Shown: in pieces, positions 1,338 through 25,757 of the stretch
Layout of the letters: each line of letters begins with the position of its first letter
Numbering within the stretch: the stretch's first letter is position 1
IMG/VR virus record: IMGVR_UViG_3300042310_000070
Location: 1 to 25,757 of that record
DNA length: 25,757 nt
Reading direction: 5' to 3' (one strand)
From: a virus
Program-made: the position numbers and the translations under genes
The notes under the pieces: generated by a model
Seen by the model: only the letters and a program-made list of their open reading frames with translations
What the model was told of the DNA's origin: nothing
Databases searched by the model: none

Positions 1338-1970
1338 ATGGCACATATTTCTTCTCTTGGCGCTGCAATGTTCACAGATTTGTCTGTGAGTGCTTTACCA
1401 AAAACTAACGCACAACTTGCAGCTATTGTTGATGGCGCAGTTTCACATTTTGGCACAGAAGCTGCGCCTAATGATGTTGCTACAGCTGCTGCCGGTCAAT
1501 TTATTCGCATTTCGCACATCAAAGAATTTCCAGCTATTGGTACACCAGCTAACGTCGTTAAAGTACCTGAATATGGTGCTAAAACTTCTAAACAAATTCA
1601 AGGTCAAGCAGACTCTCCTACAATGGAAATCACCTTGAACTATATTCCAGGCTTATGGGCTGATTCAACTTTATCTATTGAAGGCACTGCTGCTGGTACC
1701 TTTGCTAAATCAAATATTAAAATTAATGACGGTAATGTTTATCTATTCAGATTCTCTTTATTAGCATTAGAACCAGAAGGTTACTTAGCAGTTGCTAATG
1801 GTGCCGGTGATGAAAACTCTATTGGTTCAGTAGGTAACTCTTCTTACTACTTCTTAGGTAAATTTGAAGCGTTAGAAGTAACTCCAAGTTTGACTGACGC
1901 ATTGTCTGCTAAATTGACAATCACAGTACAATCTGATATTCGCGGTGCATACACTGTAGGCAACGTGTAA
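1338..1970 (+). CDS. Major tail tube protein
   Basis: A 210-residue tail tube subunit that should polymerise as stacked hexameric rings around the tape measure. Seen: SLGAAMFTDLSV at residues 6-17, GQFIRISHIKEFPAIG at 53-68, VPEYGAKTSKQIQGQADSP at 76-94, then an ITLNYIPGLW strand at 98-107. The 'EFP.IG...VV.VPEYG...S..IQGQAD.PTMEITLNY.PG.W' block is characteristic of phage tail tube proteins. Codon use is clean and the ribosome site AAAGGA (1324-1329) stands 8 nt from the ATG, fitting a very abundant product. A GC-rich hairpin follows the stop. Identification is strong; the fold itself is known for the family, not seen here. Confidence 0.88.
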   Translation: MAHISSLGAAMFTDLSVSALPKTNAQLAAIVDGAVSHFGTEAAPNDVATAAAGQFIRISHIKEFPAIGTPANVVKVPEYGAKTSKQIQGQADSPTMEITLNYIPGLWADSTLSIEGTAAGTFAKSNIKINDGNVYLFRFSLLALEPEGYLAVANGAGDENSIGSVGNSSYYFLGKFEALEVTPSLTDALSAKLTITVQSDIRGAYTVGNV

Positions 1971-2031: not shown

Positions 2032-2247
2032 ATGGCTCAAGATAAACCATTCAGCTTAGAGTATGTTGTTGGCATCACTGTCAAACATATGCTCAAAAGC
2101 ATCGATATTAGTATTAATAAAACATTCGAAAGAACAAAAGATGATTCGTTATCTCCAGATAAGAAAACTGAAGCTTTCGAAACACTTTCAATTTTACATC
2201 AAATGCGAGCACAACTAGATGAACGCAAAATTAATCAAGGTAAGTAA
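2032..2247 (+). CDS. Small hypothetical tail-module protein
   Basis: A 71-residue protein of unknown function. The ATG at 2032 is preferred over an upstream TTG at 2005 because AGGA (2022-2025) sits 6 nt before it and the TTG lies inside the hairpin described just upstream. The sequence is highly charged and probably helical, with no membrane segment: a region around EYVVGITVKHML, then a Lys/Asp-rich stretch, then a helix ending in QMRAQLDERKINQ. It ends one base before the start of the G chaperone gene. Its place between tail tube and chaperones suggests a part in tail assembly, but nothing in the sequence says which. Confidence 0.7.
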   Translation: MAQDKPFSLEYVVGITVKHMLKSIDISINKTFERTKDDSLSPDKKTEAFETLSILHQMRAQLDERKINQGK

Positions 2248-2248
2248 T

Positions 2249-2560
2249 ATGTCAGACGTAAAAGGTATTAAAGCACTAGTCGGTCAACGTATGACCAAAA
2301 CCGTTAAGTTTTTAGGATCTGATGTTAAGATTTCTAAACTATCTGTCAATGAAGTTTTAGAAATTCAAGCTAAAGCTAAAGACATTGAAAAAGATGACAC
2401 AGCGGGTTTAGAACTCTTAAAAACTGTTATCCGTTCAGCTGTTGAAGGCGGTGCAGAATTAGATGATGAAGAATTCAATAACTTCCCAATGGATGAGTTA
2501 TCTAAATTATCTAATGAAATTATGAAATACTCAGGCATCGGACAAGAAGCGGGAAAGTAA
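2249..2560 (+). CDS. Tail assembly chaperone G (short product)
   Basis: A 103-residue protein, the zero-frame product of a lambda G/GT-type chaperone pair. It should bind the tape measure protein during tail assembly and be absent from the finished virion. Seen: an N-terminal beta-like part (MTKTVKFLGSDVKISKLSV) and a helical acidic part (EIQAKAKDIEKDD, AELDDEEFNNFPMDEL) that resembles gpG-like proteins. The ATG at 2249 is chosen over an in-frame ATG at 2219 because AAGG (2237-2240) precedes it with an 8-nt gap and 2219 lies inside the previous gene. The last two codons are GGA AAG, forming a slippery heptamer just before the TAA at 2558. Confidence 0.82.
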   Translation: MSDVKGIKALVGQRMTKTVKFLGSDVKISKLSVNEVLEIQAKAKDIEKDDTAGLELLKTVIRSAVEGGAELDDEEFNNFPMDELSKLSNEIMKYSGIGQEAGK

Positions 2561-2910
2561 AGCTTGATGATGAAGAATTGGCAATTTTCGAAATAGCATA
2601 TCATCTCAAATTACCTCTTTATGAATTATATGAAAAGATGACTTATGAAGAGTTATTAGGTTGGTTTAATTATTTTGAAAGACGTCCTGTTGACTGGCGC
2701 GATGATGATCGTACAGTTAAGCTACTACAAGTACAGGGAGCTGATGGGAAACCATGGCAATACTTCACTTCATTAGACGCAATCTACAATTATAAAGCTG
2801 ATAAAGAAGCTACATTTAATGTTAATTCATTTAAGCGGTCTGGACTCTTCCAGAAATTAGCATCCGCAGGTGGCGGAGAAAATATTTTTGGAGGTAGTGA
2901 TGGCGCTTAA
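2249..2910 (+). CDS. Tail assembly chaperone GT (made by -1 frameshift)
   Basis: The predicted long product is 220 residues: 103 codons of G, then 117 codons read after a -1 slip at G GGA AAG (2551-2557). Reading resumes GTA AAG CTT GAT and continues open to the TAA at 2908-2910. The T part has the features of the minor tail protein T family: ELAIFEIAYHLKLPLYELYEKMTYEELLGW, then W-F-N-Y-F-E-R-R-P-V-D-W-R-D-D-D-R, matching the usual M-x-x-E-L-x-x-W...RP.dW..D.R pattern. The T frame has no good independent start: only a TTG at 2578 with no ribosome site. It is open only from 2518, so the window for slippage is 2518-2557 and contains the heptamer. In lambda the T part recruits tail tube subunits to the G-coated tape measure. 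Overlaps the next gene by 11 nt. Confidence 0.85.
2551..2557 (+). promoter_or_regulatory. Programmed -1 ribosomal frameshift site GGGAAAG
   Basis: The heptamer G GGA AAG is read in the zero frame as ..G GGA AAG and followed immediately by the TAA stop of G. It fits the X XXY YYZ rule and is the same heptamer used by lambda at its G-T junction. I saw no strong hairpin or pseudoknot directly downstream, as also reported for lambda. Confidence 0.85.
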
Positions 2911-3196
2911 ATTTAATATGAATATAGATGCTTTAGTAAAAAGCAAGATTGAAAAAGAAAAAATTGCAGAGACTAACAAGTTAGTTGAGGCATTAAAAGA
3001 AGCTACTCCTGTAGATACAGGAAGAGCGCGTGATGGCTGGAAAGTAGTAGATGGCAATATAACTAATGATGTTCCTTATATAGACGAATTAAATGGTGGC
3101 TCAAGTAAGCAGGCACCTCAATATTTTATTGAAAGAACATTATTATCTCATATTGGTATAGAAGCTAATGGCGTAATCGTCACACCATCTGAATAA
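2900..3196 (+). CDS. HK97 gp10-like tail completion / neck protein
   Basis: A 98-residue protein. Seen: a helical N-terminus rich in Lys and Glu, TPVDTGRARDGW at residues 36-47, then ND.PYI..LNGGSSKQAP at 56-73 and a short helix FIERTLL at 76-82. The 'TPVDTG..R.GW......I.ND.PY...LN.GSS.QAP' pattern is typical of the HK97 gp10-like / lambda gpZ-like tail completion family. The ATG at 2900 is chosen because GGAGG (2890-2894) lies 5 nt upstream; an in-frame GTG at 2870 has no such site. It overlaps the T reading frame by 11 nt. In most siphophages this gene is found before the tail terminator, so its place after the chaperones is odd. A strong terminator follows. Confidence 0.7.
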   Translation: MALKFNMNIDALVKSKIEKEKIAETNKLVEALKEATPVDTGRARDGWKVVDGNITNDVPYIDELNGGSSKQAPQYFIERTLLSHIGIEANGVIVTPSE

Positions 3197-3242: not shown

Positions 3243-6200
3243 ATGTCAGGGATCATAATTGATGTCGAAACCAGGATAGATAAGGCGCAGAAAGATTTAC
3301 ATGCCTTAAACAGTACTGTTTCCGGTGTCGCAAGTAGTGTTAACGGACTTGTAGATAATTTTAAAAGAGCAACAATGGCCATCGGTGGTATGGCAGCTGC
3401 AGGTGGTTCATTAGCTTTCATTGCACATTTGTCTACAGGCTTTACAGAAATAGAAAATAAAATAGCATTAGTGGTTGGTCGCACTAATGAGCTATCAATC
3501 GCACAAGCGAAATTACAAGATATTGCAGATGCCACACGTACATCATTAGAAGATTCAGCTAATGTCTTCTCAGCATTAGGGCGTTCAGTGAGCGGCATGT
3601 CAGTGTCTCAAAACGCGATGATGCAGGCTACCAAGACGATCCAGCAATCTATGGCCATATCAGGTGCATCGGCAGAGTCTGCTCGTGCCGCTATCACACA
3701 GCTTGGGCAAGGTTTGGCATCTGGCACGCTACGTGGTGAGGAACTCAACTCAGTTCTGGAACAAGCACCGCGTATTGCAAAGGCAATTGCTGACGATTTA
3801 AAGGTTGGTACAGGTGAATTAAGAAATATTGCAGCTGCAGGTAAGCTTACATCTACAACTGTTTTCAATGCAATCTTAAACCAATCTAAATCAATCAATG
3901 CCGAATTCGGTAAAATGAAACCAACGCTAGCTCAAGGCGGATTAGCTTTAAAAGAAGCTATGAAATCCTATTTACATGATTTAGATAAAGGTTCAGGATT
4001 TTCTGACGCAATGGCATCTCAAATGATGAATATATCTGCTAAATTAAGATTAGCAGGTGTTGACGCATTTACTGTTGGTATGAAGTTAGCAGATGGTTTT
4101 AATAAAGCCAAAAATATGTTAGCTCCTTTTGTTACAGCAATCATTAGTGTTGTTAAAGCATTAACTAAAGAGATTGTATTTGTAACAAATCTTCCAGTAG
4201 TACAAGCTCAATTTCAACATTTAAAAAGTATTGTACTGAGTGTATTTAATGCTATAAGAACGGACGCCAAAACAATATTTGATGTCGGTGCAATGATGCA
4301 TAAATTTTCTGCATTATTTCTTGTAGGGTTATTAGCACTTAAATTTCAAATAAGTCGAGTAGGCTTATGGGAAGCACTTAAAACAGATCTTCCAAAAGCA
4401 GCTAAATTTCTTGGCGATCAAATTAAACAATTATTAACATATAAATTAATTGCTGGTGCCATTTCAAATTTTGTAGATACAGCTAATAAAGCGTTATCTA
4501 AATTATTTCATTTTGAATTTTCATTTGGTTCATTAGCAGAAGTATTTGATAAAGCTAAAATTAAATTCACTGGCTTTTTAAATTTCTTAAAAGATTTTAA
4601 AGATGAAGTTGTAACTGTATTTAAAGAATCTGGTATTGAAGATTCATTTAAATTATTAATGACAGCAATATCTGCACAATTTGCTCGATTCTCTTCAGGC
4701 TTAACATTTAAAGATGTTGTACATAAGATATCTGCATCGTTAAAAACACTTGCAACAAACTTACCGCAAATAGTTGACTTTGTTATAATTCTTGAAAAAG
4801 GATTTTTAACATTGATTAAAGCAGCAATTGGCTTAGTGTTTATAATTGGTAAAATCAGTGTTGCATTAGAAGATACTTTTGTTAAATCAGGTGCAAGTGC
4901 TAAGATTACTCAATCTGTAAACGTGATTAAGAAAGCAGTTTTAGACATACAATCATCAATACAAGAAGGTACTTTTGTAGATTTATTAAAAGAAAAAGTA
5001 TCAGATTTTGGCAGTGTGGCTGTAGATAAATTCAAAGATGTAAAGAAAAGTATTGCTGATATGTTTGCCGCTTCAGGTGTTGGAGAAGCATTTGTAGCTA
5101 GCTTTAAGTTTGTAAAACAATTCATGTCAGAGTTAGTAAATAGTTTCAGAGGACAGTCTAAAGGATTTGATACTGTATTGAATGCATTAACTAATTTTGG
5201 TGATAAAGCAATTAATATCTTTAAGAATATTTGGGATAAAGTAATTGGCCACTCATGGTGGACAGACACAATTGATAGTGTAATTAGCTCATCTAAATCT
5301 TTATGGGATAATGTTAAACAAGGTTTTGAACTATTTAAAAATAATATTATCTCAGGCTATGAAGTTGTATATGGTAAATTAGACAGTATAATTGCAAAAC
5401 ACAAAGATAAATTAAGTACTACCTTCAGTAATATTAGTCTTAAAATAAAAGAAGCTCCAGCTAAATTAGCTAGTATTGATATTAAAGCTAATATCGTAGA
5501 TATGAAAGATAGCTTTGTTAAATTTAAAGATTATATTGTAAAAGCAATGGCTGGTGTAATTGAAGATGGCTACTTGAAAGATGTGTTTATAAGTGGTCTA
5601 CAATTGTGGATTGCTACAGCTTTCTTACCTACAGGGTTAGTTACAAGCGCAGTAATATTAGGGTTAGGCTATGCATTTGCACAATCTTCAGCACTACTTA
5701 TAGACTCTATCGGACGTAATTTCGGTGACATAAGTCTAATGCGTAAGTTTGGTATGCAACTTGGTGCATTCTTTGAATCAGCTGTAGAAGACTTTGTTAA
5801 AGCATTACCTAATCTTATCAGTGCAGGTGTTGGCTTTGCTAGTGGATTCTTACAAGGCTTCTTAGAGTCTATTCCAGTTATTGGTTCAGCAATTAAAGGC
5901 TTATTCTCAACAGCAGATTTTTGGGGATTGTCAGGTACATTAGGCTTTATAGGCGCACTGTTATTTGGTAAAGATATACTACGTCTTGTCAGTTATTTAG
6001 GCTTCTTTGAATCACAAATTGAAAGTATGTTAGGTGTAATTGCCCGTGTTGGAAGATTCATGGGAGGTAGCGATGGTGTTATTTCTACCTTACTATTTGG
6101 AAATGGTCGTGGCGTACGTACTATTGCGGCATTATTCTTAATTGCTGATTATTTCAACTCATTTGAATCTATATTCATGGGGTCTGCCGTAGGCCATTTA

Positions 6201-9200
6201 ATTGCGCAAGGTGGATTATTGTATCTGTTGTTTACAGGTAGAGCTGGTTTAAATGCTGTATTATCACCAATCACATTTGCGTTAAGTACAATATCACGGG
6301 GGATCCTTCAAGTAATTAGTGAAACTCGAGCAGGTGCAGCATTATTACGTAGAACATCTGTTGAAGAATTGATGTCTAATACAGAAGCAGGCGCAGCAGC
6401 AAGGTCTAGAGCATTAAGAAGAACTAATGCTTTTGCTACTAGAACAGCTATAAACCTTCCAGGTAATATGGCGGCTATGGGATCTTCTATCTCTGGGTGG
6501 GTATCTAGTGCATTTACGAATCCTAGTTATGTATTATCTCGTACATTAGCTAGTATGCTATTTAAGATTGAAACTTTCTTAATTGCAGCTAAGGCTCAGT
6601 TTATCAGATTTGGAGCATGGATAGGACGATTTGCGTTAGGCTTGACAGGTCGTATGTTAATTTGGCCTGCTTTAATTTTAGGCCTAGGTCTATTTTCAGG
6701 TGTTGTGCATGCTGCTGAAGAGGACGGTAAGAAAGCAGGTTCATCATTCATACATGGAGTATCTGTATCTATTGCAGATGGTGTAATGGGCATCTTTGAT
6801 AAAATTGCAAATGCATTGAAAGAATTGCCTAATAAAATTAAATCTATTTGGGATGACATTGATTTTAGAAATACTAAAGGTGGCTTTGATTGGGTAGGTA
6901 AATTAGGGTTAGCGATTGTTGTATTAGTAAGCTTTAGAAAACAAATAAAAGCTTTAATGGTTGAAACATCATCAGCACTTGCTGTATTAAGAAATACTGC
7001 AATGGCTACTTCTGGGCCAGCTACAATGACTGGCGGAGTATCGTCTAACTTTAGAGGTCCAAGCGCTATTGCTGATAGTAGACCAGGAATGTTTGCTAAT
7101 TTGCGCAATAGATTCTTTGGAACTCCAACATCACCTCCAGCACCCTTTGTTCCAGCTACAATGACTGGCGGAGTTTCTGCTTTATTCAGAGGGTCTGATA
7201 TAAATCCAGCTCCAGCACCCTTTGTTCCAGCTACAATGACTGGCGGAGTTTCTAGTGGCTTTAGAGGCCCAGATACAACACCACGTGCTTCTGCAGTAGG
7301 TTCAGCAGTAAATAGAGGCCTTTCAGGTATTGGTTCTGCACTTACAAATAAATATGTATCAGGATTAGCAGGTGTTGCTGCAGGTACTTTTATCGGTGCA
7401 TTTGTAGGTAATGCAGGTTGGGGGCATGCTGGCGCTGAAATTGGTGCAATAATTGCAATAGGGTTAAGTAGTCACTTATTTGCCGCATCCGCATGGATAG
7501 CATCTAAGATTGGATTAATGTTTAGTGCAGCTCAATTAGGCTTAATTGGAATAGGCATAGCAGCTGCTGGTGTATTAGGTGTGTATTTGTTTGGCGAAGG
7601 CGATTCTATAAACGAAAAGTTCGGAAATGTCTGGAAATGGATGCAAAGAATCACAGGATTCACACCTAAAAATATGGTTGCTACTTTAGGTATTTCAGCT
7701 GAATCTAAACATTTCTTAACCGCTCAAGGCGTATCACCTGGTTATGATCTTGCTGCAATAGAAAGAAGCCGCGTACCAAAAGCATTATTAAAGAAATTAG
7801 ATAATGCACTAGAAGCATTAGATAGTACTATTAGTGATATTGAGGATTCTACTGGTCTTGGTGAAGATATTTCTCAAGCGCAAAGACAACAAATTGTAGA
7901 TAAAGCTAAACAAGTTAAACAATTTGTAAGCAAAGCTCAAGTTGCGTCTAACCCTGTTATCGATAATTTCTTAAATGAATTAGTAAAAGCAAAACAATTA
8001 GATCCTAATAATGCAATCAATAGAGCGCAAATAGCTACATTACAAGCAGCTTTAGATTTTGAATATAAAACTATAAAAGGATTTAATGAATATTCTTTAG
8101 ATTCTTTCTTTCAAAGTGCGGCAGAACGTTCTGCAGGTGAATTAGCTCATCTTGCGCATATGAAGCATACACAATTTAGCGCACAGTATCAGTTAGCTAA
8201 TATTACACCACTAGAATTAAAGATAGCACAAACTTATCAAAGTCAAAGAATAGCAGGAGCAGATCCTGAATTAGCTGCTAAAATTGAAAAGTATGTTAAT
8301 TTTTATATCTCTGCAGCATCTCGTAATAAAAAGTTAAGTACATCTTTCCTTAATGAAGAAAAATTAAAGATATCTGAATTACCATTAGCTAACTATAATG
8401 AAGTTATAGCCGCAGCAAAAGGTACAACAGCAGACGCAATTAATAAACAAGTACAAGCTCAAATCAAAGGTACAGAACATTTTGCATGGGGTGAAACCAT
8501 GTATAAATACCCTTCTGTAGACTCTGCTACAATGGATCAGATTGCTAATATTATTCTTCAATTAGAGCAACAACAAGCAATAGCTATTGAAGCAAATACT
8601 GCAGCAGCTAATTTTAAAGCAGAAGTTGCAGGCCTCAAAACTAAATTTGATGCAGCAGGAATCACTTTTGATCCTGAAAAGATGTTTGCAAAAGATAAAA
8701 CCAGTTATGATGCTGTAACTGCATTAGCAGATGAAGCAAAGAAATTAACTGAATCAATGTCTAAAACACATGACATTGTTGCTAGAAATGTTTACAAACT
8801 TAAATTAGATGGTATACAAAAAGTAATTGATAAAAATGCTGAACTAGCTGCACTTAGCGGAACTCGTTCTCAAGCGGCGATTGCTAAAATAGCATCTGAA
8901 CTCAGCATGTCTGATACTATGGCATTAGCTTCGCAACTCAATACACGTCCTGCAGAGGTATTACGTGGTCGTTTAGAAGATCTGTCTTTAGCGCAAACTA
9001 GATTAGAACAAGGTAGAACACCTGCGCCTAAGTATCCAATGATGCAGGATATAAAATTACCTGTTGATATCACTAGAGAAAAACCTTTAGCATCTGGCGA
9101 ACAAGCCGATTTAATGCGTAAGGAATTAGATAAACGCAGAGATGCGTGGACTGAAGAATCTAAGAAATGGAATGATGCAGAAGCTGAATATAAGAAAAGT

Positions 9201-12200
9201 GTTGATAAATTTGCCGAAGAAAAATTCAGAATAGAACAAGATTTATTAGATAGTCTTAAGTCTGAAGGTGGCAATAAAATAGAAACACTTAATGAAATTG
9301 CTAAACTTACAGGAATGGATTTCTTCCAATTAGCTATTGAAAATGGTGTTGAAAAAGCTAAACAAACACTTTATACAATATTAGATCTTAAAACAGAAGT
9401 TGATAAAGCAATATTAGGTCATGATCCTGAAAAAGTAAATAAAGCTACAAAAGATTATAATTTAGCCAAAGCAATGAATGCCCCTTATGAGCAAAAGAAT
9501 ATCTTTGAGAAATTATCTGGAATCGGAATGAATGTCACTCCGATGGAGCTAGGCTTATTTAATGATGATACTCTTAATAAGTTAAGTACTGGTTATAAGC
9601 GTATAGCTGAAATTGATAGAGAATTTGCTAACAAGAAAGATTTAACTAATAAACAAATTAAAGATTTATACAAAGAAAGAGAAGGTATTGTTCGCCAAGG
9701 CGAAGATGCAATGGCTCTTATTCAATATTCATCTTATGATAAAATTAAATCTGCACTTAGTGATACAGGTGGCATGAGTACTCTTAGTATCCTAGGCGCA
9801 ACTAAAGCAAGTATTAAATCAATTCTTGGATTAGATGCTGCGTTTAAGGAATTAAAACGTGACACTAAAAATCCAATGAATATTGATCAATTCATTGAAG
9901 CTAATAAACAAGCTGCGATGCTTGAAAGAGCAATGGCACGTGTTAAATTGATCAATGCGTCATTTGAAGATAAACTTTCTGCAGTAAAAGAAGTATTTAA
10001 TACTGATATTTCTAATTTAGATTTTAGTAGATTATCTGGTAATTTAGGTCAAATTTTAATTGACACAGCTCAAAGATTTAAACAAGCGTTATCTGAAGAA
10101 CTTGCAACTAATGGCATGTCTGATACAGCCAAGGGTATCTTAGAAGGTATGGACCAACTATCTAAAGACGGTGCATATATAAACTTCTTTGCAAGCTTTA
10201 GAGAAGATATGAAAGAATCTTTAACAGATGGTGTATCTACAGCATTTGATAAAGTTAAAAATGCTCTTCCAGGTTTAGGTTTAGATTTCGGTCAATTCCA
10301 AAACTTAAGTTCATCTAAACAAGCTGAATACAAGGCTAAAGCTCTTGATGTAAAGACAATGAATAATCTCTTTACATTACCTAATCTTTCTCAGTACCAA
10401 GCTGATATCATAAATAAAGTAGGTAAAGGAACTCCTGTTCAAGAGATGATGAAAGAGTTGGAACAAACATTTAGTAAAGAGCAAGCTGCTAAATATGCTG
10501 CTGTATCTAAATCACCTATTGAAATTCCAATGAATAATTTAACAGAAAGCACTAATAGAAATACAGCTGCTACTGATAGATTAAATGAAACAATAAGTGG
10601 AAAAGGTACTAAAGAAGCTCCTACAGCCTTTCAAAGTCCAATTAAAACAGCTGCTGATAAGTATGGAGTAGATCCAGCTTTATTAGGCGCTTTAGTTAGT
10701 GTTGAATCTGATTTTAAAAATGGATTGACAAGCAAAGCAGGTGCGCAGGGATTGACACAGTTAATGCCAGCTACTCAAGCTAAATATGGTGTTACTGATC
10801 CGTTCAACGTACAGCAAAACTTAGATGCAGGTGCTAATTACCTTAAAGATTTAATTGATCAACAAAAGAATCTTAGTTGGGCATTAGCAGCATATAATGC
10901 AGGCCCTGGTGATCAACCATTAGCTGGTGGCGGTACCAAACGTGCTAAACGAATGGCTACTGAATTACCTTATGCAGAAAAAGTATTAAAAAGATATGCT
11001 GAGATGTCACAAGAAGGTGCAGTATTGCCTCAAGTGACAGCGTTAAAAGGCTATGAAAGTACTTTAATTCCTGGAACTAAACCTATTGATGTATCAGGCG
11101 TTAAGCCAAGTGGAGCTGCAGGCATAATTAATACAGCCACTGTGAATGCTGTAGAAGTAATGCAAAAAGAGATTGCTAATCCATTACAAGATTTGCAAAC
11201 AGAGCTGAGTTCAGGAAGATCTTCTATTAGAGAAATCTTAGCTAGTAAAGGTCAATATGATCCTGCAATGCTTGCTTCACTTAGTAATGAACAAGCTAAT
11301 AAGCTGCTAGAAGGTTTGAAAATAAAATTAGGTAAAGAATCTCAATTAAATCGGATAACAGCTGCTGGATATGATACTACTGGATTGCAAAAATCTATTC
11401 TTAGTGATGCTGAAAAAGAAAAAGGAAAAATTGATGCTATCAATATGTCCATTAGTTTAACAGCTAATAGGCTAAATGAAGCTGATGGCTTCTTAAAGCA
11501 AATGCCAAATAATATCACATCATTCCTAGAAGTATATAGTGGATTGAATGCTGAAACCGTTGCATATATGAGTGAAGCACAAAAGTCAATACTTAAAACA
11601 ATGACTTTAGACGCACTTCATTTGCAAAAACAAATTGATGATGCTAAATTATTAGGACAACCTACAGATGAAGCTTCAAGTAAACTTGCGTTATTAAAAG
11701 ATAGTATCAAAGAAATGGGTGATGCTGCTAATGCAAGCGCTATTCAAGCTCGTGAAGCAGGTAAGTCATTTGCAAGCGGTATTCAAGGTGGTTTCAAAGA
11801 TGCATTTAAAGGTTTAATAACAGGCGCAGGTGCAGGTGAAAAAGGCGGAATACTAGGTGCTTTTGCTAATAAATTAAAATCAGCTTTCATTGATAACATG
11901 GCAAATGCTATGTCTGACAGTATGACTAAAAGTTTAGGTTTAGGTGCAGAGGGTACTTTATTTAAAACAGCGGAAGGCTTAGGAACTAAAGTATTTAGTT
12001 TATTTGAGTCAGGGATAAATAGTATTACACCTAATGCAATGAGATCACCATCAAGTGGTTTCTTATCATTCTTAGGTTTTGCAGAAGGCGGTCAAATAGC
12101 TGGTCCAGGTACTGGTACATCTGATTCAATGATTGCTGCTGTATCTAATGGTGAGTATATTGTAAATGCTAAATCTACAGCTAAACATTTAGGCTTATTA

Positions 12201-15200
12201 GATGCAATTAATAAAGGCAAGATTCCTAAGTTTGCTAAGGGTGGTTTTTACGGTAATAATGTTACATCTGCATTTTCTACGATTCCCGCTACAACAGGTA
12301 CTGTAATTGAAATAAATGGATTAGATGCACCAGCCGCTAAATTATCTAAAGCTGGAGATGATTTATTAAATTCAAGTAGTATCTCTAAAGATGTATCATC
12401 TGTATGGCTAGATTCAATAACTCAAATGGTTACAGGCGGTCCTGATGGTGGCGGAATAACTGGTACGCTTGTAGATGTTGGTGCAGAAGTTGGTAAATTC
12501 TTTCAAGATAAATCTAAATGGGTATGGGATGGTACTATTAATCTTTATGACAAAGCCAAAGGTTTGTTAAATACTGCTGGAAATTTTGTATGGGATGGCG
12601 TAATTAATGTAGCTGGGACTATTAAAGATAATTTACCTTCTGTATCAGCTCTTGTAAATTGGACAGGAGGTGGAAATGTCTCTGTTCCCGGCACAGTTAA
12701 TACTGGTTCCGCACCATCAGTAACGGCTACAGTAAGCGGTTGGTTAGATAAAGCAGGAAATGCAATTAAAGATTTAAATATAACAGGTACTTTAACAGAT
12801 TTCAAAAATACTATAACTGCTAAATTTGCTGGATGGTATGAAAATGGAACAACGCTTATAAATGACGCGTGGCAAGGTGTTAAAGGTACTCTTAATATTT
12901 CAGAAACTGCTAAAACAGTATCAACAAAAATCTCTGAATGGTATGATGCAGGCGGTACTTTAATAGGAGAAGGCTGGAAAGGCGTCAAAGGTGTTATTTC
13001 AAATATTCCTAGTATTGACTTCAGTAATATGTTTACTGTAGATAATATGGAAGCGATAGGCGGTGCATATGTCTTAAAACCGTTCACTTATATGTCTAGC
13101 GCATTGAAGAATATAGACTTTAATAAATACTTTAGTCTTGAAGCAATAGGCAAAGGGTTCAAAGCTGTTTTAACGCCATTTACATGGATTCGCGATAAAG
13201 TATCCGCAATGGATCCTGGCCAATATCTGACATTAGATACTGTCGCAGCTGCAGGTAAAAACATTATAAAGCCATTTACATGGCTCGGCGCTCAAGTCAC
13301 TAAAATACCTTTCTCAGATTATTTGTCTGTACAAGGGATCAAAGAAGTTGGTACAACTTTATTAAAACCGTTTGAATATATCGGTGCAGAAATAAACAAA
13401 GTAGATTGGGCGGGATTATTTAAATTTGATCCTTCCAAAATATTTCCTAATTTATCTAATGATATTTCTGGTGATATTGCGGAGTGGTTCGGTAATATTG
13501 ATTTGCCAGCTTTTGAACCTAGTAAATGGGCGAATGAAATAAGATCACTCGGGACGGTAGCCTTTGACTTCCTCACTAACTTGGTAAAAGGCATAAGAAT
13601 TGATTCTGTTGCTAGTTTATTCCCGCAAGCTACAGGAGGTTTAGCAGGAACTGGCAAAGACATTCCTCTCAGCGGTCTAGTTAAAGGCCCTGGTACTGGT
13701 ACATCGGATTCAATTCCAGTTCGATTATCGAATGGGGAGTATGTAATACCGGCAAAACAAACAGCAGAATATGCTGATGTACTTAATCAAATTAGAGCTG
13801 GTACTTTTGGAAAAGGATTGCCTGGTGACCTAACAATTGGAGACTATGCGGCGGGTATTAAAAGTGGTAAATATGCAACTAAAGATAATAAAGGATTCTT
13901 TGATGCATTAGGTAAATTAAAAACTTATGATGCTAATGGTAATCCTACAGGGCATTATTGGATGCCTGAATATGCGCCTATAATGGACTCATTGGGTTCT
14001 GCATTTACATCAGGATTGCCTTCAAATTCTTCTGTTAATTATGGTGGAAAGGATTACGGCATTGCTGCTTTCAATAAATTAATGATGAAGGGCATTAGTG
14101 GTGCAGGCCAATTAGTTAGGACAGCGCTAGGGAAATACTCTTGGGATAATACTGGAGAAATGTCTGATTGGACTCCTGATATTTCTGAAACGCCTATAGC
14201 TGGCACATCTCAGTATACTATGGAGCAGTTAAAGTATACTTTTGGAAAGCAAGGCGAAGCTATCGGATACTCGGATATAAAACCTACTGATATGACTACT
14301 AAGTTCATATTAAGTGATAATGGCGCTAGACAAGTTCCTAATCTCTTAAATGATGATAGTAATTGGTTTGGTACAGGTATTCTGTTGCCTAATGATCGTT
14401 CTATGTCAGTAGAAGATATGGCTGCAATTAGAGCGCATAACTATTTAAACCTTAGACGATTTGATTCTATTGCTGATAAGCAAACAGGTAAAGGTTTACT
14501 TCGTGTATTCAATCAAAATCCTAAAACTAAAGCTTTTGAACCTGCCAAAGGTTCTTTAGGGCCTTGGAGAACTCAATCAGAAGTAAATAAGTTAGTTGAA
14601 AATTCAGGCTATTTAGGGAATACACAATTCTTTGATAACACAACAGTTGCACAAATGGATGCTGTCAGAGAAGCTTCCTTTCCTGTAATAAGTGCGTATG
14701 ATGAAGAATCCCAAAATACGTTTAAAAAGTTTAAACCGAATTTAGGTACATTAGGCATTTTTGCCAATACAGGTGCATCATCATTCCTCAATTTGAATGA
14801 CAGCATTGATGGATATGTATGGCCATCTGGTATGAATAATGCCACTGCATTAGCTAAAATAGGATTACAAAATAAGCAATATTCTGAATTATTAGCAAAA
14901 AGTGAAAATCCGTTATCAGATGCAGCAGTTTTCTGGCAAAACACCAAAGGTTCAACTCATTATGAAAAAGAACTTGCAAAAACTTCAAGCGTATCTGGTC
15001 ATTCTTCTATAAACTATTGGGAAGATTATTTCGGACAAACGGCTTTAGATTTAATCAATAAATACCATCCTGACGCTTCTAATAATTATTTAGGCACAGC
15101 AGTACAACCTAAGCCTAACGCTCAAGTTCAAAAAATATTAGAAGCTACAGAAAAAGCTTTTGAGTTACCTTTGAAAGCAGATGGATCTCCATATTCAGAT

Positions 15201-17405
15201 GATGATATCAAAGCAATTCACCAAGGATTAGTCGATTCTAATATTCTAAGTAAAGTTGTTGCGGGATCTACTAAAAGTGCTGTAGGCTTAAATGGGTTCC
15301 AAATTCCTTCTAATGTTATGGCCAGTTTGCTTAAAGACGGCCAACTAGGTACAGGTAGTTGGGCATTAGAGAAAAACAGTGGAATGTACAATTACACTGA
15401 AGAAGCTGTAGCAAATGGTACAAAGATGCGTGAGACTGTCTTAGGTCTTACTAGTGCTGCAGGTGATCTCGTAACAGAGAGAATTCCTACAGATAAGCCT
15501 ATGTTAGAGTTGAATAAAGCAGGCAAGTGGGAATTACCAAAAATAAAAGTACCAGAAGCCACTAATACCCGATTGGCAGCTAAATTAGTTTCAAATGTAG
15601 CTTCTGGAAAATCCAAAGTCAGTGATTGGATGTCACCAAAAACTCCTAAAGTTACATCAACTACTCCATATATGACTTTTGATCTTTTAAGTAAGAATGC
15701 CGGTCCTAAGCCTGCCTCTGATCCTTTTGCGCATATTAAAGATTTATTATCGGTAAAAGGTGTCAAGAAGTTCGGATCAGATAGTATGAAGATGGCGTCC
15801 TACTTGGCTGATAAATTATACAGGGGTGGTGTTGATACAGCTATTTCAATAAAAGATTTTTATACGAGTATGACTGCGGAGGGCTATATTGATGCAGGAA
15901 AGGTAGGTGCGTTACCTGATTTTAAACTACCAGATACGCTATTTGCTTTAGATAATGTTAAAACTAAATTCCCATTTGACGCAAAATTCTTGGGAGAACA
16001 ATTTGCGTCAGATGCTTGGGCAGGTTATACATTGCTAGGTAGTGCTGATAATCCTTATGGTTCGTCCTTTCCATTTCTATTAGATAAGAATGCGAGCCCT
16101 AAAGATGTTTCCGGAGCTAAGGCAAACTTGGATCAATTAGTTGCTTATGTAAAAGCCGGCGGTGCAATGACTTCCGAGCAGACATTAGGGGCTGATTGGA
16201 TTTTAGGCAAGTCTAACCTTGATATTAATAAACTTCGTCCGCCAACAATGTTAGATAAGGTAGGAAATTGGCTAATAAAACCTGCGGGTGCTGATGCTGG
16301 AGTCCCTCCTGTATTACAGGCATATGATACTTCAACTGCTGCAGGATTATCTCAATTCTACCCTAAAGTATTTTCAAACCCTGTTTTAGCAAAGCAGATA
16401 ACATCTGATCTTGCACCAGATAATACTTTGGATGAAAGTACAGTAACTTCGTTATTAGACAATATTGAATTTTCAAGTCTTTCAAAATCATTAAACGACA
16501 AGTTAGTAAGCGACTGGGGTAAAGATATGATAGCACCAATGCTATCAGGCGTAGAAGTAATAGATCAATCTACATACCCTAATCCTGAATTCGGTATTTG
16601 GGATCGTATGTTAAGCTGGGTAGGGTTATCTGATAAGCCTGAAATTTTAACAGCAGAACAACATGATGATTATGAAACTTTCAAAGGTTACAAACCATTA
16701 GCTATTTCTAAACCAGTAACACCTTCGTTATTTAATTTTGGAAATGATCCTATTACTAAAGTTCCAATGTTGTCTATAGGTTCTGGTAAGTTATTACAAG
16801 ATTGGGAAGCAGATGAAAATCCACTAATTACTCTTGCAAAAGATTCCCAAGGACAAAGTTTATCTTCTAATTGGGATGCGGGTTGGAAAAACGATTTTGG
16901 ATTTAGCGATAATCGGATGACAGATATTACTCCGATGGTTGAGGCAATATTCTCAGCATTTACCAATGACCCTGTTGGAACCATCGCATCTATTGTTACT
17001 CCAGCTGCTCAACAGACAGTGACAAGTTTGTTAACTGGATGGTTATTCAGCTCAGTTATGGGTATGGCTACAGGCGGTTTAGTAACAGGCCCTGGAACAA
17101 GTACTTCTGATTCAATTCCTACAATGTTATCCAATGGTGAATTTGTAATTAATGCGGCTGCAACTAGACAGAATAGAGCGTTACTTGAATCTATCAATTC
17201 AGGCCGTCCACTTTCATCTTTAGCGCCTTCTATCGGTGTTAAAGAATTTGATACAAATAAAAATTCAGTAGTTAATAATAACTCTACTGTAGTAAATTTA
17301 AATATAACAGGAGATATCTCTAATCAAACAAGATCTGAGATTCTTCAATTAATTCCAACAATAGCTCAAGGTGTTAATACATACAATAGAGCTAGAGCTT
17401 ACTAA
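3243..17405 (+). CDS. Giant tape measure protein with internal lytic transglycosylase domain
   Basis: A 4720-residue protein that sets tail length, occupies the tail lumen and is expected to leave first at infection. Seen in order: the tape-measure N-terminal domain at about 66-245 (ENKIALVVGR, ISGASAESARAAI, LRGEELNSVLEQ, LTSTTVFNAI); Lys/Phe-rich amphipathic helices to about 780; hydrophobic, probably membrane-active clusters at about 790-1450 (for example LIWPALILGLGLF, GIGIAAAGVLGVYLFG); long coiled-coil-like sequence to about 2440; a soluble lytic transglycosylase (SLT) domain at about 2467-2586 with probable catalytic Glu2488 in SVESDF, then GLTQLMPAT and ALAAYNAGPG; three GPGT-TSDS motifs at 2949, 3478 and 4611; Trp-rich repeats at about 3090-3393; and an unrecognised region at about 3520-4600. 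AGGA (3232-3235) lies 7 nt before the ATG. Lambda gpH is about 850 residues; only phages with extremely long tails reach this size. Confidence 0.93.
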   Translation: MSGIIIDVETRIDKAQKDLHALNSTVSGVASSVNGLVDNFKRATMAIGGMAAAGGSLAFIAHLSTGFTEIENKIALVVGRTNELSIAQAKLQDIADATRTSLEDSANVFSALGRSVSGMSVSQNAMMQATKTIQQSMAISGASAESARAAITQLGQGLASGTLRGEELNSVLEQAPRIAKAIADDLKVGTGELRNIAAAGKLTSTTVFNAILNQSKSINAEFGKMKPTLAQGGLALKEAMKSYLHDLDKGSGFSDAMASQMMNISAKLRLAGVDAFTVGMKLADGFNKAKNMLAPFVTAIISVVKALTKEIVFVTNLPVVQAQFQHLKSIVLSVFNAIRTDAKTIFDVGAMMHKFSALFLVGLLALKFQISRVGLWEALKTDLPKAAKFLGDQIKQLLTYKLIAGAISNFVDTANKALSKLFHFEFSFGSLAEVFDKAKIKFTGFLNFLKDFKDEVVTVFKESGIEDSFKLLMTAISAQFARFSSGLTFKDVVHKISASLKTLATNLPQIVDFVIILEKGFLTLIKAAIGLVFIIGKISVALEDTFVKSGASAKITQSVNVIKKAVLDIQSSIQEGTFVDLLKEKVSDFGSVAVDKFKDVKKSIADMFAASGVGEAFVASFKFVKQFMSELVNSFRGQSKGFDTVLNALTNFGDKAINIFKNIWDKVIGHSWWTDTIDSVISSSKSLWDNVKQGFELFKNNIISGYEVVYGKLDSIIAKHKDKLSTTFSNISLKIKEAPAKLASIDIKANIVDMKDSFVKFKDYIVKAMAGVIEDGYLKDVFISGLQLWIATAFLPTGLVTSAVILGLGYAFAQSSALLIDSIGRNFGDISLMRKFGMQLGAFFESAVEDFVKALPNLISAGVGFASGFLQGFLESIPVIGSAIKGLFSTADFWGLSGTLGFIGALLFGKDILRLVSYLGFFESQIESMLGVIARVGRFMGGSDGVISTLLFGNGRGVRTIAALFLIADYFNSFESIFMGSAVGHLIAQGGLLYLLFTGRAGLNAVLSPITFALSTISRGILQVISETRAGAALLRRTSVEELMSNTEAGAAARSRALRRTNAFATRTAINLPGNMAAMGSSISGWVSSAFTNPSYVLSRTLASMLFKIETFLIAAKAQFIRFGAWIGRFALGLTGRMLIWPALILGLGLFSGVVHAAEEDGKKAGSSFIHGVSVSIADGVMGIFDKIANALKELPNKIKSIWDDIDFRNTKGGFDWVGKLGLAIVVLVSFRKQIKALMVETSSALAVLRNTAMATSGPATMTGGVSSNFRGPSAIADSRPGMFANLRNRFFGTPTSPPAPFVPATMTGGVSALFRGSDINPAPAPFVPATMTGGVSSGFRGPDTTPRASAVGSAVNRGLSGIGSALTNKYVSGLAGVAAGTFIGAFVGNAGWGHAGAEIGAIIAIGLSSHLFAASAWIASKIGLMFSAAQLGLIGIGIAAAGVLGVYLFGEGDSINEKFGNVWKWMQRITGFTPKNMVATLGISAESKHFLTAQGVSPGYDLAAIERSRVPKALLKKLDNALEALDSTISDIEDSTGLGEDISQAQRQQIVDKAKQVKQFVSKAQVASNPVIDNFLNELVKAKQLDPNNAINRAQIATLQAALDFEYKTIKGFNEYSLDSFFQSAAERSAGELAHLAHMKHTQFSAQYQLANITPLELKIAQTYQSQRIAGADPELAAKIEKYVNFYISAASRNKKLSTSFLNEEKLKISELPLANYNEVIAAAKGTTADAINKQVQAQIKGTEHFAWGETMYKYPSVDSATMDQIANIILQLEQQQAIAIEANTAAANFKAEVAGLKTKFDAAGITFDPEKMFAKDKTSYDAVTALADEAKKLTESMSKTHDIVARNVYKLKLDGIQKVIDKNAELAALSGTRSQAAIAKIASELSMSDTMALASQLNTRPAEVLRGRLEDLSLAQTRLEQGRTPAPKYPMMQDIKLPVDITREKPLASGEQADLMRKELDKRRDAWTEESKKWNDAEAEYKKSVDKFAEEKFRIEQDLLDSLKSEGGNKIETLNEIAKLTGMDFFQLAIENGVEKAKQTLYTILDLKTEVDKAILGHDPEKVNKATKDYNLAKAMNAPYEQKNIFEKLSGIGMNVTPMELGLFNDDTLNKLSTGYKRIAEIDREFANKKDLTNKQIKDLYKEREGIVRQGEDAMALIQYSSYDKIKSALSDTGGMSTLSILGATKASIKSILGLDAAFKELKRDTKNPMNIDQFIEANKQAAMLERAMARVKLINASFEDKLSAVKEVFNTDISNLDFSRLSGNLGQILIDTAQRFKQALSEELATNGMSDTAKGILEGMDQLSKDGAYINFFASFREDMKESLTDGVSTAFDKVKNALPGLGLDFGQFQNLSSSKQAEYKAKALDVKTMNNLFTLPNLSQYQADIINKVGKGTPVQEMMKELEQTFSKEQAAKYAAVSKSPIEIPMNNLTESTNRNTAATDRLNETISGKGTKEAPTAFQSPIKTAADKYGVDPALLGALVSVESDFKNGLTSKAGAQGLTQLMPATQAKYGVTDPFNVQQNLDAGANYLKDLIDQQKNLSWALAAYNAGPGDQPLAGGGTKRAKRMATELPYAEKVLKRYAEMSQEGAVLPQVTALKGYESTLIPGTKPIDVSGVKPSGAAGIINTATVNAVEVMQKEIANPLQDLQTELSSGRSSIREILASKGQYDPAMLASLSNEQANKLLEGLKIKLGKESQLNRITAAGYDTTGLQKSILSDAEKEKGKIDAINMSISLTANRLNEADGFLKQMPNNITSFLEVYSGLNAETVAYMSEAQKSILKTMTLDALHLQKQIDDAKLLGQPTDEASSKLALLKDSIKEMGDAANASAIQAREAGKSFASGIQGGFKDAFKGLITGAGAGEKGGILGAFANKLKSAFIDNMANAMSDSMTKSLGLGAEGTLFKTAEGLGTKVFSLFESGINSITPNAMRSPSSGFLSFLGFAEGGQIAGPGTGTSDSMIAAVSNGEYIVNAKSTAKHLGLLDAINKGKIPKFAKGGFYGNNVTSAFSTIPATTGTVIEINGLDAPAAKLSKAGDDLLNSSSISKDVSSVWLDSITQMVTGGPDGGGITGTLVDVGAEVGKFFQDKSKWVWDGTINLYDKAKGLLNTAGNFVWDGVINVAGTIKDNLPSVSALVNWTGGGNVSVPGTVNTGSAPSVTATVSGWLDKAGNAIKDLNITGTLTDFKNTITAKFAGWYENGTTLINDAWQGVKGTLNISETAKTVSTKISEWYDAGGTLIGEGWKGVKGVISNIPSIDFSNMFTVDNMEAIGGAYVLKPFTYMSSALKNIDFNKYFSLEAIGKGFKAVLTPFTWIRDKVSAMDPGQYLTLDTVAAAGKNIIKPFTWLGAQVTKIPFSDYLSVQGIKEVGTTLLKPFEYIGAEINKVDWAGLFKFDPSKIFPNLSNDISGDIAEWFGNIDLPAFEPSKWANEIRSLGTVAFDFLTNLVKGIRIDSVASLFPQATGGLAGTGKDIPLSGLVKGPGTGTSDSIPVRLSNGEYVIPAKQTAEYADVLNQIRAGTFGKGLPGDLTIGDYAAGIKSGKYATKDNKGFFDALGKLKTYDANGNPTGHYWMPEYAPIMDSLGSAFTSGLPSNSSVNYGGKDYGIAAFNKLMMKGISGAGQLVRTALGKYSWDNTGEMSDWTPDISETPIAGTSQYTMEQLKYTFGKQGEAIGYSDIKPTDMTTKFILSDNGARQVPNLLNDDSNWFGTGILLPNDRSMSVEDMAAIRAHNYLNLRRFDSIADKQTGKGLLRVFNQNPKTKAFEPAKGSLGPWRTQSEVNKLVENSGYLGNTQFFDNTTVAQMDAVREASFPVISAYDEESQNTFKKFKPNLGTLGIFANTGASSFLNLNDSIDGYVWPSGMNNATALAKIGLQNKQYSELLAKSENPLSDAAVFWQNTKGSTHYEKELAKTSSVSGHSSINYWEDYFGQTALDLINKYHPDASNNYLGTAVQPKPNAQVQKILEATEKAFELPLKADGSPYSDDDIKAIHQGLVDSNILSKVVAGSTKSAVGLNGFQIPSNVMASLLKDGQLGTGSWALEKNSGMYNYTEEAVANGTKMRETVLGLTSAAGDLVTERIPTDKPMLELNKAGKWELPKIKVPEATNTRLAAKLVSNVASGKSKVSDWMSPKTPKVTSTTPYMTFDLLSKNAGPKPASDPFAHIKDLLSVKGVKKFGSDSMKMASYLADKLYRGGVDTAISIKDFYTSMTAEGYIDAGKVGALPDFKLPDTLFALDNVKTKFPFDAKFLGEQFASDAWAGYTLLGSADNPYGSSFPFLLDKNASPKDVSGAKANLDQLVAYVKAGGAMTSEQTLGADWILGKSNLDINKLRPPTMLDKVGNWLIKPAGADAGVPPVLQAYDTSTAAGLSQFYPKVFSNPVLAKQITSDLAPDNTLDESTVTSLLDNIEFSSLSKSLNDKLVSDWGKDMIAPMLSGVEVIDQSTYPNPEFGIWDRMLSWVGLSDKPEILTAEQHDDYETFKGYKPLAISKPVTPSLFNFGNDPITKVPMLSIGSGKLLQDWEADENPLITLAKDSQGQSLSSNWDAGWKNDFGFSDNRMTDITPMVEAIFSAFTNDPVGTIASIVTPAAQQTVTSLLTGWLFSSVMGMATGGLVTGPGTSTSDSIPTMLSNGEFVINAAATRQNRALLESINSGRPLSSLAPSIGVKEFDTNKNSVVNNNSTVVNLNITGDISNQTRSEILQLIPTIAQGVNTYNRARAY
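7017..7253 (+). repeat. In-frame tandem repeat inside the tape measure gene
   Basis: A 44-base sequence is repeated exactly at 7135-7178 and 7210-7253, a period of 75 nt (25 codons). Its 23-base core CCAGCTACAATGACTGGCGG(AGT) also occurs at 7017-7039. The repeated peptide is PATMTGGVS followed by FRG, at about residues 1259-1345 between hydrophobic segments. It is rich in Pro and Gly, so it is likely a flexible linker. DNA identity shows the last two copies arose recently. Confidence 0.85.
10641..11000 (+). other. Lytic transglycosylase (SLT) domain within the tape measure protein
   Basis: Residues about 2467-2586. The order AADKYGVDPALLGALVSVES, SKAGAQGLTQLMPAT, ALAAYNAGP and PYAEKVLKRY is the canonical SLT arrangement. 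Glu2488 (GAA at 10704-10706) is the expected catalytic acid of the VESDF motif. The family cleaves the MurNAc-GlcNAc bond of peptidoglycan, forming a 1,6-anhydro end. In a tape measure this suits local opening of the cell wall during DNA delivery. Confidence 0.9.
12087..12179 (+). other. GPGT-TSDS motif, copy 1 of 3 in the tape measure
   Basis: Residues 2949-2979 read GGQIAGPGTGTSDS, then a short variable part, then SNGEYIVNAKST. It is preceded by a hydrophobic FLSFLGFAEGG stretch. This motif is familiar near the C-terminus of many tape measure proteins of phages of Gram-negative bacteria. Confidence 0.85.
13032..13418 (+). repeat. Four-unit 32-residue repeat in the tape measure protein
   Basis: Residues 3264-3392 form four consecutive units of 33, 32, 32 and 32 residues. 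Each has a hydrophobic start (FTV, FSL, LTL, LSV), a central KPFTY / TPFTW / KPFTW / KPFEY box, and an end with an aromatic or leucine (NKY, GQY, SDY, AGL). DNA identity between units is low, so the repeat is old and kept at protein level. Two related Trp repeats, GWYENGTTLINDAWQGVKG at 3197 and EWYDAGGTLIGEGWKGVKG at 3232, lie just upstream with a 35-residue period. Confidence 0.85.
13674..13763 (+). other. GPGT-TSDS motif, copy 2 of 3 in the tape measure
   Basis: Residues 3478-3507 read GLVKGPGTGTSDSIP, then LSNGEYVIPAKQT. It lies 529 residues after copy 1 and closes the Trp-rich repeat region. Confidence 0.85.
17073..17165 (+). other. GPGT-TSDS motif, copy 3 of 3 in the tape measure
   Basis: Residues 4611-4641 read GGLVTGPGTSTSDSIP, then LSNGEFVINAAAT, 1133 residues after copy 2 and about 110 residues from the C-terminus. 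It is preceded by a hydrophobic helix (LLTGWLFSSVMGMA). This copy is in the position usual for the motif in tape measures. Confidence 0.85.
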
Positions 17406-25249: not shown

Positions 25250-25757
25250 ATGGCGAAAAAATCTAGACGTACTGAAGAAAACGTTGTAGAACCCACTACT
25301 GAAAAGGACTTACAGCTTTTAACAGATGCACAAAAAAGATATTTAAATTCCATAAAATCAAATATAATAACGTTTGGTGTTGGGGTTGCTGGTACAGGTA
25401 AATCATATGTAGCATTATCATATGCTGCTCAATTACTACAGAACAAGCGAATATCAAAGATCATTGTTACAAGGCCTGCGGTAGAAGCCGGTGAATCATT
25501 TGGATACTTACCAGGAGAGCTTGAGGAAAAATATGCTCCCTACGTTGATCCAATAAAAGATATATTAAACAAAAGATTAGGTCATTCATTTACAGATTAC
25601 TTATTTAAACGTAAAGTAATTGAAGCAAGACCATTGGCATTTATCAGAGGAAGTACATTTGAAAATACATTCGTATTATTAGATGAAGCTCAAAATTGTA
25701 CTCCTGCTCAAATGAAAATGTTCTTAACTAGAATTGGTGAGAATACTAAAGTAGTTA
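25250..25757 (+). CDS. PhoH-like ATPase (N-terminal part; runs off the window)
   Basis: The first 169 residues of a P-loop protein of the PhoH family. Seen: Walker A GVAGTGKS at residues 45-52, IIVTRPAVEAGESFGYLPG at 71-89 with EKYAPYVDPIKD at 93-104, FIRGSTFEN at 131-139 and Walker B VLLDEAQN at 142-149. These are the hallmark PhoH motifs (TRP...E..GFLPG...K..PY..P..D; F-x-RG-x-T-x-x-N; DEAQN). The ATG at 25250 has AAGGG (25236-25240) 9 nt upstream and lies 15 nt after the holin-like stop. The family binds ATP and has been linked to RNA handling and phosphate-starvation responses in hosts; its phage role is unsettled. The 3' end is outside the window. Confidence 0.9.
   Translation, partial: MAKKSRRTEENVVEPTTEKDLQLLTDAQKRYLNSIKSNIITFGVGVAGTGKSYVALSYAAQLLQNKRISKIIVTRPAVEAGESFGYLPGELEEKYAPYVDPIKDILNKRLGHSFTDYLFKRKVIEARPLAFIRGSTFENTFVLLDEAQNCTPAQMKMFLTRIGENTKVV

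Follow-up and report, generated by a model that had tools for sequence, protein, structure and literature searches.

The window, by which is meant the whole 25,757-base virus record that was analysed (IMG/VR IMGVR_UViG_3300042310_000070), contains two overlapping genes, G and T, which sit between the tail tube gene and the tape measure gene in the same order as in the named relatives. Tail assembly chaperone pairs are typically located in this way, with G and T flanked by the tail tube and tape measure genes. Genes for a head-tail adaptor, a tail terminator and the major tail protein lie 5' of G, while 3' of T come a Neck1-like gene and then the gene of a tape measure protein of 4,720 aa. The features of the locus are as follows:

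1338..1970, + strand: major tail (tube) protein gene, the upstream neighbour (phrog_158 major tail protein, E 5.6e-9)
2032..2247, + strand: small ORF encoding 71 aa, located between the tail tube gene and G (no family match)
2249..2560, + strand: gene G, predicted tail assembly chaperone of 103 aa and main product (family matches, AlphaFold2 model)
2551..2557, + strand: putative slippery heptamer G GGA AAG (in frame; GGGAAA invariant in 51 main-clade junctions; codon statistics)
2558..2560, + strand: 0-frame stop TAA directly after the heptamer (reading frame; spacing shared by 48 of 72 relatives with the heptamer)
2557..2910, + strand: T part of the predicted GT fusion, 117 aa after the slip (T family matches; T-frame substitution pattern starting at the heptamer)
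2564..2610, + strand: position of the 3' hairpin of relatives, degenerate in the window (11 of 20 pairs, no excess stability)
2900..3196, + strand: tail completion or Neck1-like gene, 3' of T and preceding the tape measure gene (phrog_169, E 2.2e-12)
3243..17405, + strand: tape measure protein gene, 4,720 aa, with TMP_3 (PF20155, E 2.6e-50) and SLT transglycosylase (PF01464, E 8.8e-22) domains

Similar small ORFs occupy the position before G in the DSS3 phages and EBPR siphovirus 1. The Neck1-like gene (2900-3196) is placed between T and the tape measure gene and not among the head-tail connector genes. Within the tape measure protein, the SLT transglycosylase domain spans residues 2466-2558 (positions 10638-10916, E 8.8e-22). 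Elsewhere in the window, the product of positions 21156-23663 bears a Peptidase_S74 chaperone domain at its C terminus, and at 25250-25756 a PhoH-like gene runs off the window end.

The G frame (2249-2560) ends with the codons CAA GAA GCG GGA AAG TAA. The T frame is -1 relative to G, has a stop at 2515 and is open from 2518 to 2910, and the two frames overlap by exactly 40 bases (2518-2557). Re-reading the frames gave the same result as the preliminary description, according to which the T frame is open solely from 2518, the slip is confined to 40 bases that include the heptamer and the G stop follows the heptamer directly. The overlap contains a single heptamer of the form X XXY YYZ, GGGAAAG at 2551-2557, which lies in the register of the G frame. 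As a bare motif GGGAAAG is not rare, with one match against 1.83 expected by shuffling on both strands of the window; in-frame GGGAAAN occurs at this site alone among the 8,084 codon positions on the forward strand of the window, and an overlap of 13 codons would be expected to contain about 0.026 in-frame XXXAAAN sites. Chance occurrence of the heptamer is excluded because it is conserved in relatives. The only start-like codons of the T frame near the junction are TTG at 2578, which has a Shine-Dalgarno core of 2 nt and lies 18 nt past the G stop, and ATG at 2638, which falls in the middle of the domain of T. Slippage at the heptamer would yield a GT fusion of 220 aa in which the junction peptide ...EAGK is followed by VKLDDEE. 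No strong internal Shine-Dalgarno sequence is found 5' of the slip site in the window, where pairing is weak (best -3.2 kcal/mol).

The search for relatives covered 183 related loci with 95 distinct junctions, and T is in the -1 frame in all relatives examined. T had been described as having no start of its own, and a T-frame start codon before the G stop is found in none of the 95 distinct junctions; the observation named in advance as speaking against a frameshift, a normal start codon and ribosome site for T in relatives, is thus not borne out. Conservation of the heptamer, one of the checks proposed at the outset, is seen in 72 of the 95 distinct junctions, which carry an in-frame GGGAAA[G/C/A] in the overlap (GGGAAAG 50, GGGAAAC 16, GGGAAAA 6). 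Outside a pelagiphage-type clade the in-frame motif GGGAAA[G/A/C] is present in 68 of 70 junctions, the two exceptions being the odd lineage L169 and one record that is cut off by its end; the 23 junctions without the canonical heptamer are these two and 21 of the pelagiphage type. The overlap is reduced to 13, 10 and, in DSS3_VP1/PM1, exactly 7 bases, namely GGGAAAC, and since the heptamer alone makes up the overlap in the latter there is no other place to slip.

Across 51 main-clade junctions, substitution periodicity switches at the heptamer, from that of the G frame on its 5' side to that of the T frame on its 3' side. In the same alignment the first six bases of the heptamer, GGGAAA, have zero entropy; the 51 rows were selected for carrying the heptamer, yet every main-clade junction found carries it. 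The residue that precedes Gly-Lys varies among the 51 relatives (Q, A, S, K, V or T), and the codon preceding GGA AAG ends in G in 51/51 against 19% expected. Glycine at the slip site is encoded by GGA in 51/51 (21% expected) and lysine by AAG in 45/51 (32% expected). The strong constraint that had been proposed for the heptamer is borne out by this invariance and codon bias and, as judged from the sequences, acts on the nucleotides of the slip site and not on the protein only.

In the pelagiphage-type clade (L022, L103-L147), 21 distinct junctions have G GGG AAG at the position homologous to the slip site and four close members have G GGA AAG; the former may represent slippage on a G_GGG tetramer. 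For the Pelagibacter phage Kolga, the authors speculated that its S21 protein aids frameshifting (PMC8163748). In L169 (643-668) the T homologue lies in the -1 frame, a GGGAAA site is absent and the overlap contains a CCCC run, which might act as a substitute slip site.

Both proteins can be placed in families of tail assembly proteins. Members of the G family match PF10109 Phage_TAC_7 (23 of 58) and the tail assembly chaperone family phrog_4976 (20 of 58), while the G of the window alone falls below the thresholds in curated-family searches. The AlphaFold2 model of G (pLDDT 79) resembles the HK97 tail assembly chaperone 2ob9 (Z 7.4 over 92 aligned residues), YqbN (Z 7.0) and two uncharacterised proteins (Z 7.9 and 7.1), values which, lying below a Z of 8, are suggestive and short of proof; the next, unrelated match is at Z 2.5. 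G is thus predicted to fold like the HK97 tail assembly chaperone. In the T family, 52 of 55 members match phrog_337 (best 4.6e-10), which is also matched by lambda T (4.8e-7), and 31 of 55 match PF06223 Phage_tail_T (best 1.6e-9). The T of the window alone matches weakly (phrog_337 E 0.001; Pfam E 0.13), and comparing profiles directly with the single lambda T also gave a weak match. By these profile matches T is assigned to the lambda T family. Profile searches of the sequences of solved structures gave no real match with G or with T, and Foldseek gave no match with T.

A separate T protein could in principle be produced by termination-reinitiation or by initiation at an internal codon, for instance TTG 2578 or ATG 2638. 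The TTG lies 18 nt after the G stop, and in the annotations of EBPR siphovirus 1 and the DSS3 phages T is a gene of its own with a downstream start. However, no start codon position is common to the relatives and Shine-Dalgarno cores measure 1-3 nt in nearly all of them, and internal starts and reinitiation were rejected. Moreover, conserved T residues and the first predicted helix begin 5' of the candidate starts, within about 6 residues of the slip; the first residue of the helix is number 7 counted from the slip site, so that translation from an internal start would truncate it. Separate synthesis of T would also leave the invariant heptamer and its codon bias unexplained and is very improbable. 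The lack of a start for T is the sole point that would favour a sequencing error or a decayed T pseudogene, a reading which is contradicted by the relatives, in that the same junction recurs in many independently assembled contigs and in isolated phages and the T frame is under purifying selection; its likelihood is negligible. Counted against a frameshift are the weak matches of the window's own T and G to curated families, the lack in the window of a stimulatory RNA structure or a strong internal Shine-Dalgarno sequence, and the 21 pelagiphage-type junctions with G GGG AAG in place of the canonical heptamer.

The locus is best read as a lambda-type G/GT site of programmed -1 ribosomal frameshifting, with a probability of about 0.95, in agreement with the preliminary description, which had placed it at GGGAAAG. 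This reading is based on the frames and the missing T start, gene order, conservation among relatives, the change of coding frame at the heptamer, codon-level statistics, the protein families and the predicted fold. The slippage itself, its frequency and the role of the products in assembly we infer as follows. Most ribosomes would translate G and stop at the TAA at 2558, releasing the 103-aa chaperone. In a minority, tRNA-Gly on GGA and tRNA-Lys on AAG would slip back by one base to GGG AAA, and these ribosomes would bypass the TAA and continue through T to give the 220-aa GT fusion. If assembly proceeds as in lambda, the G portion would coat the tape measure protein, and the recruitment of tail tube subunits would fall to the T portion of the few GT molecules.

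Of the 72 junctions that carry the heptamer, 48 have the 0-frame stop immediately behind it and another 16 have the stop after 6 nt. When the T peptides were recoded with local codon usage, 23 +/- 3.7 adjacent stops were expected against the 48 observed and 39.6 +/- 3.7 stops at 6 nt or less against the 64 observed, in a simulation that treats the 72 junctions irrespective of shared ancestry. The adjacent stop is commoner among the relatives than would be predicted from coding alone. On the tree the spacing switches between 0 and 6 nt, as in the near-identical pair L074 and L084, and the adjacent stop is kept while the last base of the heptamer and the T residue change (GTA, CTA or ATA). In an HIV-1 (intercodon) reporter, a stop directly after the slip site led to less frameshifting, which depended on release factor (PMC4373837). 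The preliminary description had expected the adjacent stop to give a sharp ratio between the two products, which is not supported; published data on stops after slip sites suggest a lower and release-factor-sensitive efficiency instead. A tentative variant of the G/GT reading, of rather low probability, is that the slip is post-translocational, occurring when AAG occupies the P site and the stop the A site, and that competition between release factor and slippage helps to set the G:GT ratio. The excess of adjacent and near stops, the retention of the stop as the heptamer's last base and the T residue vary and the release-factor dependence of the HIV-1 reporter with a stop at the same position are all consistent with it, but the expected numbers take no account of ancestry, a nearby stop may merely end G cleanly at the slip site and lambda functions with a stop 15 nt away. 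In the window, release-factor sensitivity is putative and deduced from the geometry of the stop.

Many relatives have a potential hairpin of up to 20 bp with a 7-base loop, located 6 bases after the heptamer. Its stability relative to synonymous recoding reaches z < -2 in 25 of 72 relatives (down to -6.4), compared with 6-8% in control windows located 99 and 198 nt further. The corresponding segment of the window has a z of +0.4 and forms 11 of 20 pairs, and no stable hairpin 5-9 nt after the heptamer that could serve as a stimulatory RNA structure is found there. The hairpin is present in EBPR siphovirus 1 and absent from the window and most of its closest kin. In an unselected alignment the covariation score of the hairpin is 0.148 against 0.127 +/- 0.006 when shuffled and at most 0.095 in shifted registers, while the covariation count on a second alignment (A4) is biased because its rows were picked for folding. 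RNAalifold gave no consensus structure for the unselected alignment of 50 sequences, and the hairpin is therefore claimed for a subset of relatives only; a search of Rfam gave no match. Tape measures are on the whole longer in lineages without the hairpin (Mann-Whitney p 0.007, Spearman p 0.08, 18 lineages), a relation confounded by one clade that holds most of the long tapes. A link between hairpin loss and tape measure length is put forward as a hypothesis. That the G:GT ratio is tuned jointly by release factor competing at the adjacent stop and by a 3' hairpin, strong in part of the lineages but eroded where tape measures are longest, is unlikely on present evidence; if true, fewer GT per G would be required for tape measure proteins of the greatest length. 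To our knowledge, stop competition and a 3' hairpin have not been described together for G/GT sites. In lineage L183 (G008:C1:23400-43300) the tape measure ORF is 5,895 aa long from the first ATG, with the same open frame length in a second contig. It is longer than the tape measure of P23-45, which has 5,002 residues and is described as giant (PMC10770324), and that of the window has 4,720 aa.

In EBPR siphovirus 1 and the DSS3 phages (L019, L020, L021) the site is present and G and T are annotated as separate hypothetical proteins. No annotation of a GT fusion occurs in the regions read of the records of EBPR siphovirus 1, DSS3_VP1/PM1 and Kolga, in which two genes annotated as hypothetical can now be assigned a function. 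The relatives also provide a natural series of slip sites, with the stop adjacent or 6 nt away, the hairpin present or eroded and GGGAAAG or GGGGAAG, which can be used to study how the chaperone ratio is set in phages, possibly in relation to tail length.

The closest known system is lambda G/GT, in which the GT fusion is a minor product, at about 1:30. Both sites have GGGAAAG preceded by GCG and a shift in the -1 direction (the lambda record reads GCG GGA AAG TGT), which confirms the earlier statement that the heptamer is identical to that of lambda and extends the identity to the preceding codon. In both, the pair lies between the tail tube and tape measure genes and T is of the same family and without an upstream start. 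They differ in that the lambda stop is located 15 nt after the heptamer and not directly after it, in an overlap of 61 rather than 40 bases, and in that the G of the window belongs to a TAC_7-like chaperone family and not to that of lambda G. In the conserved G/GT-type frameshifts of other tailed phages the chaperone genes likewise overlap and the slippery site is close to the 3' end of G (Xu et al. 2004, cited in PMC5009743; PRFect survey, PMC10885494). On average the 0-frame stop lies 26 nt from the slip site in the SEA-PHAGES set and 36 nt in the Xu set (PMC10885494), whereas the distance is 0 in the window. A stop directly after the slippery heptamer is shared with Rous sarcoma virus and barley yellow dwarf virus (named in PMC4373837), although their genes and hosts are unrelated and their ribosomes eukaryotic. 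The mechanism is already well known (PMC5009743) and the site in the window adds one more lambda-type G/GT case, to which the conserved adjacent stop and the lineage-variable hairpin make a modest addition.
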